A stretch of 64,000 bases of DNA. Source: Agromyces sp. LHK192 (GTDB lineage: Bacteria > Actinomycetota > Actinomycetes > Actinomycetales > Microbacteriaceae). The notes beneath the pieces are model-generated. The model ran no database searches. It had not been told where the DNA came from and saw only the letters and a list, made by a program, of their open reading frames with translations. Positions within the stretch are counted from its first letter, which is position 1. The number at the start of each line of letters is the position of its first letter. The DNA lies in the NCBI RefSeq assembly GCF_004006235.1, contig NZ_CP034753.1:1736001-1800000 (forward strand), read 5' to 3'. Positions 17,063 through 55,927 of the stretch are shown here, one piece after another. The translations under genes were made by a program, and so were the position numbers.

Positions 17063-17467
17063 ATGGCCGAGCCGAAGACGAAGCCCACGGATGCCTCCGT
17101 CGCCGAGTTCCTCGCGACCGCCGAACCGGCGGGGCGACGAGAGGACGGGTTCGCGCTCCGCGAGCTGTTCGACCGGGTGACCGGCACGGATGCGGTGATG
17201 TGGGGGCCGTCCATCGTCGGGTACGGCGTGCACCACTACCGGTCCGCGGCGGGCACGGAGGGCGACTGGATGGTCGTCGGGTTCTCGCCGCGGAAGGCCT
17301 CGATGTCGTTGTACGGGCTGCAGCTCCCGGGTGCCGATCCGATCATCGAGCGGCTCGGCAAGGTCAAACGCGGCGCCGGGTGCCTGTACGTCGGGCGCCT
17401 TTCCGGCATCGACGAGCATGCGCTCGAGTCGCTCGTCGACTTCGCCTGGGTGCACACGCGCGGCTGA
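17063..17467 (+). CDS. DUF1801 domain protein
   Basis: 134 residues spanning one DUF1801 (YdhG-like) domain, recognisable by the MWGPSIVGYGVHHY segment, the WMVVGFSPRKASMSLY strand and the C-terminal CLYVGRLSGIDEHALESLV. The fold is related to frataxin-like/iron-chaperone proteins, but the cellular function is not established. It is a single gene between pheST and the arginine cluster. Just after its stop there is a short direct repeat (17459-17473 and 17483-17497). Confidence 0.85.
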   Translation: MAEPKTKPTDASVAEFLATAEPAGRREDGFALRELFDRVTGTDAVMWGPSIVGYGVHHYRSAAGTEGDWMVVGFSPRKASMSLYGLQLPGADPIIERLGKVKRGAGCLYVGRLSGIDEHALESLVDFAWVHTRG

Positions 17468-17497
17468 GGCATCCGCTCGACGCGCGGCTGAGACATC
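17459..17497 (+). repeat. Short imperfect direct repeat over the end of the DUF1801 gene
   Basis: The 15-mers CGCGGCTGAGGCATC (17459-17473) and CGCGGCTGAGACATC (17483-17497) are 24 bases apart and differ at one base. The first copy contains the stop codon and a copy of the dispersed GAGGCATCCG motif. Confidence 0.7.
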
Positions 17498-17539
17498 GGC
17501 GTCGAGATGCGTCCGGCGCGTCGCCGGACGTCACCCGGT

Positions 17540-17569
17540 TTGCACCGCGGGCTTCGCCGTCGCTAGGGT
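17540..17569 (+). promoter_or_regulatory. Promoter of the arginine-rich leader ORF
   Basis: -35 box TTGCAC (17540-17545), an 18-base spacer and -10 box TAGGGT (17564-17569), followed after seven bases by the ATG of the leader ORF. The -35/-10 combination is among the best sigma-70-type promoters in the window. Confidence 0.65.
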
Positions 17570-17576
17570 CGTTCGC

Positions 17577-17663
17577 ATGTCCACGCCTCGGTTCCGCACC
17601 ACCGCACGCGCCACGCGCGTCGTCGTGGTGGCGAGCCGACGTCGTGGCGGTCGCCGAGTCTAG
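17577..17663 (+). CDS. Arginine-rich leader peptide upstream of argC (putative attenuator ORF)
   Basis: A 28-codon ORF between its own promoter and argC. Nine of the 28 residues are Arg (positions 5, 7, 11, 14, 21, 22, 23, 26, 27), with SRRRGGRRV at the C terminus. The last five Arg codons are CGA, CGT, CGT, CGC and CGA; CGA and CGT are uncommon in this GC-rich genome. The ATG follows the -10 box by seven bases, so it would be read from a leaderless message. Its last codons and stop lie in a perfect hairpin (17649-17669). The arrangement resembles ribosome-mediated attenuation leaders such as trpL, here with the product amino acid of the downstream pathway. Function is inferred; conservation has not been tested. 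Confidence 0.55.
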   Translation: MSTPRFRTTARATRVVVVASRRRGGRRV

Positions 17664-17706
17664 GCGACCCCGCGCGCGGCGATGGAGCCGTCCGCAGGTG
17701 TCGCCG
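17649..17706 (+). promoter_or_regulatory. Possible attenuator hairpins between leader ORF and argC
   Basis: GGTCGCC (17649-17655) pairs with GGCGACC (17663-17669) around a 7-base loop that contains the leader stop codon. A second stem, CGGCGA (17677-17682) with TCGCCG (17701-17706), follows. The TCGCC and GGCGA segments are interchangeable, so the two stems could be part of alternative folds controlled by a ribosome stalled at the Arg codons. No U tract follows, so a classical intrinsic terminator is not evident. Confidence 0.4.
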
Positions 17707-17734
17707 GAGCCGATTCCTCGACCGCTACGACCCT

Positions 17735-17740
17735 TAGGGT
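17735..17740 (+). promoter_or_regulatory. Possible second -10 box directly before argC
   Basis: TAGGGT with the same 7-base gap to the ATG (17748) as at the leader ORF. The -35 region is poor. If active, it would give a leaderless argC message that bypasses the leader ORF. Confidence 0.45.
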
Positions 17741-17747
17741 GGATTCC

Positions 17748-18791
17748 ATGACCTACTCCGTCGCCGTGTCCGGCGCGTCCGGTTATGCCGGAGGAGAGAT
17801 CCTCAGGCTGCTCGCCGATCATCCCGACTTCGAAGTCCGCACCGTGACGGCGCACGCGAACGCGGGGCAGCCCCTCGTCGCCGTGCAGCCGCACCTGCGC
17901 GCGTACACGCACCTGACGCTGCAGGAGACGACGCCCGAGGTGCTCTCGGGCCACGACGTCGTCTTCCTCGCGCTGCCCCACGGCGCTTCCGGCGCGGTCG
18001 CGGCGCAGTTGCCCGACGACACGCTCGTCATCGACTGCGGCGCCGACCACCGACTCGAGTCGGCCGACGACTGGGCCGCCTTCTACGGCGCCGACCACCA
18101 CGGAGCCTGGACCTACGGCGTGCCCGAGCTGCCCCGCCTGTCGAGCACGCAGCGGGTGCGTCTCGCGAAGACGCGTCGTATCGCGGCGCCCGGGTGCAAC
18201 GCCTCGACGGTCGCCCTGTCACTCGCCCCAGGCATCCGCGCCGGCGTCATCGAGGAGCGCGACCTGGTCGCCGTGCTGGCCGTCGGTCCGTCGGGCGCCG
18301 GCAAGAGCCTCAAGGCCAACCTGCTCGCGTCGGAGATCCTCGGATCGGCGAGCCCGTACTCGGTCGGTGGAGTGCACCGGCACATTCCCGAGATCCAGCA
18401 GGCGCTGCGCTGGGCGGGCGCCACCGAGCCGTCGATCTCGTTCACGCCGGTGCTCGTGCCGATGGCCCGCGGCATCCTCGCGACGTCCACGGCTCGGCTC
18501 GTTCCCGGCACGGATGCCGCATCGGTGCGCCGTGCCTGGGAGGACGCCTACGCGGGCGAGCCGTTCGTGCAGCTCCTGCCCGAGGGGCAGTTCCCGAGGA
18601 CCGCCGACGTCGTCGGCGCGAACACGGCCCTGCTGGGCCTCGCGGTCGACGAGGCGGCGGGCCGCGTCGTCGTCGTCGCGGCCGTCGACAACCTCGTGAA
18701 GGGCACCGCGGGTGCGGCGATCCAGTCGGCGAACCTCGCGCTGGGCCTGACCGAGAGCACCGGACTCCCCGTGAACGGAGTGGCACCGTGA
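17748..18791 (+). CDS. argC: N-acetyl-gamma-glutamyl-phosphate reductase
   Basis: 347 residues from ATG 17748, the first residues of the conserved protein ([17 protein letters not shown]). Third step of arginine synthesis: NADPH-dependent reduction of N-acetylglutamyl phosphate. The N-terminal Rossmann fold has GASGYAG; the active-site cysteine is in AAPGCNAST, followed by the GPSGAGKSL and [12 protein letters not shown] regions. [14 protein letters not shown] is near the C terminus. It is the first gene of argCJBDFH; argJ begins within its stop codon (GTGA overlap). The in-frame ATG at 17682 would add 22 residues without family support. Confidence 0.97.
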
Positions 18792-28455: not shown

Positions 28456-33587
<5,132 letters not shown>

Positions 33588-33794
33588 ACTACACACACAC
33601 GAAGTGTTCATTCATGTAAAGGCCGTGTGTGTGGCCTCAAAGAATTGCTCGCGTCCACTCTGTGGTTCCCAGCAGACGGAACCCAACACATTTCAATACA
33701 GACACGCCCAACCACGGTCGGCACCACGCCACCAGGGAAGGCACCCGAAACCACCCAACACCCCACAACACCGGGGGGTGAACTGGGTTCTAGA
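33588..33794 (+). other. 23S-5S spacer with processing stem
   Basis: About 200 bases without a gene. CACACACAC (33592-33600) can pair with GTGTGTGTG (33625-33633), a likely RNase III-type processing stem after 23S. The remainder is not structured in any way I recognise. Confidence 0.6.
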
Positions 33795-33913
33795 GTTTCG
33801 GCGGCCATAGCGCGAGGGAAACGCCCGGACACATTCCGAACCCGGAAGCTAAGACTCGCAGCGCCGATGGTACTGCAGGGGCGACCCTGTGGGAGAGTAG
33901 GACACCGCCGGAC
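33795..33913 (+). rRNA. rrf: 5S ribosomal RNA
   Basis: 119 bases from GTTTCGGCGGCCATAGC to CACCGCCGGAC, with the usual CCCGAACCCGGAAGCTAAG-like core (here ATTCCGAACCCGGAAGCTAAG) and GGTACTGCAGGGG. The 5' and 3' ends pair (GTTTCGGCGG / CCGCCGGAC). Confidence 0.95.
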
Positions 33914-55849: not shown

Positions 55850-55923
<74 letters not shown>

Positions 55924-55927
55924 CGGA

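Follow-up and report, generated by a model that had tools for sequence, protein, structure and literature searches.

The window, a stretch of 64,000 nucleotides from Agromyces sp. LHK192, carries a cluster of arginine genes headed by argC and, directly upstream of it, an Arg-rich leader ORF (uORF) preceded by promoter-like hexamers (Table 1). This ORF had been picked out in a sequence-only reading of the same DNA, an observation that is confirmed here; gene names beyond argC are taken from that reading and from the translations, ArgC being the one protein for which searches were made. The uORF translates as MSTPRFRTTARATRVVVVASRRRGGRRV followed by the stop codon, with Arg at nine of its 28 codons, and its 3' end reads CGA CGT CGT GGC GGT CGC CGA GTC TAG, the TAG occupying 17661-17663. 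A further 84 nt separate the end of the uORF (17663) from the argC ATG (17748). Elsewhere the window contains an rRNA operon (16S, 23S, 5S; 28456-33913) and a tRNA-Pro gene (55850-55924).

Table 1. Features of the argC leader of Agromyces sp. LHK192, in window positions
Feature	Position	Strand	Basis
-35 hexamer TTGCAC	17540..17545	+	sequence reading and comparison across leaders
-10 hexamer TAGGGT	17564..17569	+	7 nt upstream of the uORF ATG
Arg-rich leader ORF (uORF), 28 codons	17577..17663	+	sequence, conservation, frame, codon usage
Arg codons 21-23 (CGA CGT CGT), proposed sensing site	17637..17645	+	conserved offsets, third-base variation
Segment 1, can pair with 17663-17669 (7-bp hairpin)	17649..17655	+	sequence; weakly conserved
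Arg codons 26-27 (CGC CGA)	17652..17657	+	conserved offsets
Segment 2 GGCGACCCC, shares one base with the stop codon	17663..17671	+	alignment, covariation
Segment 3 GGTGTCGCC, partner of segment 2	17697..17705	+	covariation, swap test
Candidate segment 4 CGACCCT, may pair with 17696-17703	17728..17734	+	window duplex -12.1 kcal/mol; marginal family-wide support
SD-like AGGGTGG of argC (often AAGGTGG or AAGGTAG in relatives)	17736..17742	+	SD-like core pattern in 60/62 leaders
argC, first cluster gene	17748..18791	+	match to ArgC protein in 293/299 family genomes

On direct reading the upstream elements are spaced as TTGCAC-18 nt-TAGGGT-7 nt-ATG (17577), and the short distance from the -10 hexamer to the start codon makes it probable that the uORF transcript is leaderless. 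The length, Arg content, coordinates and -10 spacing given for the ORF in the sequence-only reading hold. Its description of the promoter as strong was a judgement: both hexamers are present and have comparative support, but a scan with an E. coli-type consensus returned no promoter in 17450-17850. The promoter call rests on comparison among 62 leaders (defined below), in which TANNNT lies 6 or 7 nt 5' of the start codon in 61 and 9 nt in one, and TTGNNN lies 15-20 nt 5' of the -10 in 52, at a spacing of 18 nt in 46.

Distribution of the leader ORF and of ArgR

The named loci used for comparison are the best 80 of 252 argC matches, all from genera of the Microbacteriaceae and an uneven sample. 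Two scans were applied: a strict scan, which demanded an Arg-cluster ORF with TANNNT 4-9 nt before its start codon, and a structural scan, which demanded a -10, an Arg-box ORF and the pairing of segments 2 and 3 (helix 2:3). The strict scan found the Arg-cluster ORF and -10 ahead of argC in 61 of these best 80 loci, which together with the window constitute the 62 leaders, a selection that is independent of the helix. Many of the added loci are copies of named ones, with 33 duplicates in a total of 229, and counts were therefore restated over distinct loci, with L103 left out as too short: among 162 distinct family loci the strict scan was positive in 113, the structural scan in 111 and either scan in 119. 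With repeats included, the structural scan was positive in 141 of 195 family loci; on dinucleotide-shuffled upstreams it was positive in 10 of 960. The sequence-only reading had held that an alignment across the Microbacteriaceae should reveal a conserved short ORF with Arg clusters together with covarying stems, and both are present, the ORF at the named loci just counted and the covariation in helix 2:3. The outcome that it named as contrary, an ORF or Arg codons without conservation in relatives, is not what was observed among the distinct loci.

Within Agromyces, the uORF precedes argC at 31 of the 32 named loci, the exception (L024) being a contig that ends before the promoter, and at 11 of 11 distinct loci beyond the named ones. 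It is also found at all 15 Microbacterium and all 7 Leifsonia named loci, and in Okibacterium, Labedella, Mycetocola, Amnibacterium, Schumannella, Glaciibacter flavus, one of two Frigoribacterium and one further family member. The strict scan found no uORF at the named loci of Leucobacter (11), Cryobacterium (2), Naasia (2), Glaciibacter superstes, the other Frigoribacterium and one MAG. Three loci that were missed by the strict scan (L166, L182 and L188) carry a leaderless GTG ORF with fewer Arg codons. When distinct loci were drawn over the genera of the family, either scan found the uORF in 34 of 55, leaving 21 without it. In other families of the order neither scan found a uORF at any of 34 loci; at 14 of these the assumed argC start is not a start codon, and at one the upstream sequence is only 90 nt long.

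On an ArgC tree of 60 rows, built by a quick method with 26 Agromyces rows left out and with weakly supported deep forks, the uORF is scattered over the family and six changes are needed, which fits an old feature of the family that was later lost several times. The closest named relative of the window's ArgC is that of Agromyces agglutinans (93% identity, the best named argC match). No Rfam family reached its gathering threshold in the leader, with only sub-threshold matches in 17400-17900. A covariance model gave one strong match in the LHK192 genome, at the argC leader (E 1.1e-7); the next two matches (E 0.0019 and 0.0056), which seem to lie inside coding DNA and are followed by 52 weaker ones, were not accepted as second copies. 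Matches of the model in 30 of 297 genomes of other families (E 2.7e-4 to 0.01) were taken as chance, the calibration being rough. In three Agromyces loci (L004, L013 and L025), the stretch from segment 3 to the argC SD is seemingly duplicated in tandem.

The lack of argR in the cluster, which the sequence-only reading had pointed out, extends to the whole genome and to the family: ArgR (PF01316) gave no match in the LHK192 genome or in any of 299 Microbacteriaceae genomes, and scored above the cut-off in all 39 genomes examined from the order's other families. Among the 48 genomes of the named loci, none had a match over the cut-off, and the one sub-threshold match came from a Frigoribacterium without the uORF. 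A GTATnnTnnTG-like motif, which we take to resemble the ARG box, lies near the argC -10 in 22 of the 34 upstreams from other families (L197-L230), as against 0 of 195 in Microbacteriaceae, and perhaps represents ArgR sites. Since family members without the uORF likewise show no ArgR, the uORF is not the sole answer to ArgR loss. Loci of Leucobacter, Cryobacterium and Naasia (L036, L038, L044, L050, L054 and others) show neither ArgR nor uORF, and some of them have a leaderless-looking argC. In the LHK192 genome argG lies about 2 Mb away from the arg cluster. This gene was rejected as a second target, the upstreams of eight Agromyces argG genes (L258 and seven others) being leaderless-looking, with a -10-like hexamer immediately 5' of the ATG and, on inspection by eye, no Arg uORF.

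Probable translation of the leader ORF and RNA pairing

By all signs in the comparison, the uORF is translated. The distance from start codon to segment 2, as taken from the alignment, leaves a remainder of 2 on division by 3 in all 62 leaders, so that the frame is kept, although this agreement is only partly independent since the uORF scan required Arg codons and a -10. The spacing between segments 2 and 3 is spread over the three frames (21, 18 and 23 of 62 leaders). In a set of 115 distinct leaders, segment 2 was assigned to GGCG within the Arg box in 22, and the frame count uses the alignment instead. Within the three consecutive Arg codons (RRR) it is the third base that varies most, with a summed entropy of 4.15 versus 1.48 and 1.93 over the 62 leaders and of 4.93 versus 2.56 and 3.24 over 24 leaders. 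Arg makes up 26.8% of uORF residues, compared with 5.0% in ArgC, and occurs at offsets -26, -23 and -20 from 17663 in 51, 58 and 49 of the 62 leaders and at offsets -11 and -8 in 56 and 62. CGA accounts for 33.2% of Arg codons in the box (n=358), 1.4% in the 5' part of the uORF (n=142) and 1.7% in argC (n=1076, 62 loci). The sequence-only reading had called both CGA and CGT uncommon, which holds for CGA and less so for CGT (6.6% of the same argC Arg codons). The CGA eight bases 5' of segment 2 is invariant across the 62 leaders, perhaps with its paired first base as an additional cause.

The leader as a whole folds better than all of 200 shuffles (z -5.2). In helix 2:3 (17663-17671 with 17697-17705), each of the six inner pairs is present in 58-62 of the 62 leaders. 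Over all 52 representatives, 85% of cells are paired and 17 cells are changed on both sides, the pairing percentage being biased upwards because about half of these representatives were found by a scan demanding five of the six 2:3 pairs. None of 500 shuffles was as high on four of five measures, the covariation score included, and 38 of 500 were as high on the fifth, the number of pairs with a double change. A hand-chosen 42 of the 52 gave 89% paired and 17 double-changed cells, values matched by no shuffle out of 500 on four measures and by 5 on the fifth. Sliding the helix by -3 columns yielded as many changed pairs (18 cells) at lower pairing and score. In swap tests, the native pairs were matched by 0 of 5000 permutations for 24 leaders selected independently of the helix, stood above all 10000 permutations for 52 leaders, and stood above 9944 of 10000 for 16 strictly distinct leaders (z -2.7, compared with -2.0 for the 2:4 comparison).

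The sequence-only reading had drawn a different pair of competing stems. Its 7-bp hairpin (GGTCGCC, 17649-17655, with GGCGACC, 17663-17669), which encloses the stop TAG, is exact in the window, but across leaders this 1:2 pairing is weakly conserved: only the four loop-proximal pairs are common, the swap test gave no signal (z 0.2), and slides of +1 to +3 columns scored higher; the pairing did surpass shuffles on some measures, none of 500 reaching its covariation score. Its second stem (17678-17683 with 17700-17705) can be drawn, yet has a counterpart in just 11 of the 62 leaders. The conserved, covarying partner of 17700-17705 is 17663-17668 rather than the stem proposed. A helix between segments 3 and 4 was rejected as a family-wide terminator or sequestor. 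It was overall non-significant against shuffled targets (median z -0.18, with z < -1.65 in 9 of 62 leaders), and in the swap test it was marginal and did no better than the 1:4 comparison (z -2.2 versus -2.6 for 1:4); it is good in some lineages, for example L002, L027, L042, L065, L076 and L077.

Proposed mechanism and alternatives

The argC leader is probably an arginine-responsive, ribosome-mediated leader-peptide attenuator of the argC-headed cluster in a family without ArgR. The comparison supports the attenuator interpretation already offered in the sequence-only reading as regards the translated Arg-rich ORF, its spacing and helix 2:3; the arginine response itself, with its ribosome stall, its direction and its output step, is what we infer. 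Transcription would start at or next to the uORF ATG, with a ribosome beginning on the leaderless message. With ample Arg-tRNA, this ribosome would reach the stop codon and cover segment 2, so that helix 2:3 could not form and the downstream genes would be held down. Under Arg-tRNA shortage, it would wait at Arg codons 21-23 and cover segment 1, leaving segment 2 free; helix 2:3 would then form and the arg genes would be expressed, given that in a biosynthetic operon the 2:3 state under arginine shortage should be the ON state.

In a simple footprint model (16 nt ahead of the P site and 14 nt behind), a ribosome stalled at an Arg codon can reach segment 1 while segment 2 stays free in 61 of the 62 leaders, mostly at offsets -26, -23 and -20. 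A ribosome that has arrived at the stop codon covers three or more of the first six segment 2 bases in 59 of 62. When segment 1 is masked, predictions for helix 2:3 exceed 0.5 in 59 of 62 leaders if folding ends at the argC ATG and in 53 of 62 if 28 nt of argC are included; for the window itself the prediction is about 1.0 with the RNA ending at the argC ATG and 0.007 with the 28 nt added. The absence of helix 2:3 in the stop state follows from the construction of the mask itself.

An intrinsic terminator is a less likely output than Rho or access to the argC start site, since neither a T-tract nor a terminator hairpin is seen: between segment 3 and argC none of the 62 leaders has a T run >3 (longest 1-3), no terminator-like site was found in the window at 17450-17850, and the leader has no GC hairpin with U-tract of the trp-attenuator type. 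Between segment 3 and the SD the sequence is rich in C and poor in G (45% C, 22% G; 24 leaders), which would suit Rho. Predicted access to the argC start differs little between the stall and stop states, and sequestration of the start by state-dependent folding was set aside as a weak trend only (stop tighter in 12 of 24 leaders, stall tighter in 7). The leader was also rejected as an N-terminal extension of ArgC from an in-frame ATG at 17682, as the distance from segment 3 to argC falls in all three frames among relatives.

Other readings of the leader account for parts of these observations. It is unlikely that argC is served by a leaderless promoter of its own (TAGGGT or TAAGGT before the ATG), with the uORF transcript a side product that has no control over argC. 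A TANNNT does lie 5-9 nt before the argC ATG in 56 of the 62 leaders, and several family members without the uORF have a leaderless-looking argC; however, only 2 of those 56 have TTGNNN 15-20 nt farther up, six leaders are without TANNNT, and an SD-like core occurs before argC in all leaders except the window and L001, so that the TANNNT-like sequence fits better with an SD than with a promoter. A minor promoter directly at argC may nevertheless exist.

The remaining two readings dispense with arginine sensing or with translation. A uORF that constitutively supplies argC with ribosomes, or protects the RNA from Rho, would be in keeping with the C-rich stretch before the SD, but it leaves the Arg excess of the uORFs over ArgC and the enrichment of CGA unexplained, and is considered quite improbable. 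That the leader is a structured or protein-binding RNA, with untranslated Arg codons as a by-product of GC-rich helices, is very improbable indeed: the covariation of helix 2:3, the folding of the leader relative to shuffles and the position of segment 1 inside Arg codons are as this reading would have them, but the frame is kept throughout the 62 leaders (Arg codons and -10 being preconditions of the scan), Arg codons vary at the third base and the start codon stands directly behind the -10.

For the leader-peptide attenuator a broader evolutionary scheme can be proposed, in which the whole family lost ArgR and arginine synthesis came under a leaderless, Arg-codon-sensing attenuator without an intrinsic terminator, which would be ancestral and later lost several times; the chances of this scheme being correct are judged to be about even. 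Arginine synthesis is a classic example of control by a repressor, ArgR. In the Microbacteriaceae, no repressor was found in the 299 sampled genomes, and many have a candidate ribosome-read sensor at the same operon. If the proposal is true, protein control would have been replaced by ribosome-based control, which is testable in culturable strains, and arginine would be added to the list of amino acids that leader peptides monitor at actinobacterial biosynthetic operons.

Relation to known systems

In attenuators of the trp/his type, a leader ORF carries regulatory codons and the position of the ribosome picks between mutually exclusive RNA structures. The sequence comparison suggests that the argC leader adds to such leader-peptide attenuators, for an amino acid and a family with none described in the literature found. 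The one paper found on point for Actinobacteria, a comparative study from 2005 that includes Leifsonia xyli (PMC1262725), reports in its accessible part no conserved RNA structure upstream of arginine operons, in agreement with the statement in the sequence-only reading that no arginine attenuator had been described for this group. No attenuator of an arginine operon in bacteria was found in the titles and abstract openings of the open-access literature.

The argC leader is like the classical attenuators, including ilvB1 of M. tuberculosis (PMC13236596), in that a ribosome at the stop codon would mask the anti-structure. It differs from them in the lack of long T runs, in its leaderless-looking start and in the amino acid. 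The nearest known system in form is that of the mycobacterial polycysteine leaderless uORFs, for which attenuation by elongation speed is reported (PMC4633059, Shell 2015; PMC9031893; PMC13236596). These also belong to Actinobacteria and combine a leaderless short ORF, a cluster of product codons near the C-terminus and matching genes downstream; they differ in controlling cysteine rather than arginine genes, and the likeness is one of overall layout.

The nearest known system in signal is orf34 of the Salmonella speF leader, in which, according to the accessible part of PMC6386406, two consecutive Arg codons sense low arginine through ribosome pausing and no Rho-independent terminator was found. 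Consecutive Arg codons in a leader ORF and the lack of an intrinsic terminator are shared with the argC leader, whereas orf34 controls ornithine decarboxylase, has a long leader and an SD-led ORF, acts through Rho and RNase G and belongs to another lineage. Repression by ArgR shares with the argC leader the same kind of target operon and the same signal, but ArgR is a DNA-binding repressor.
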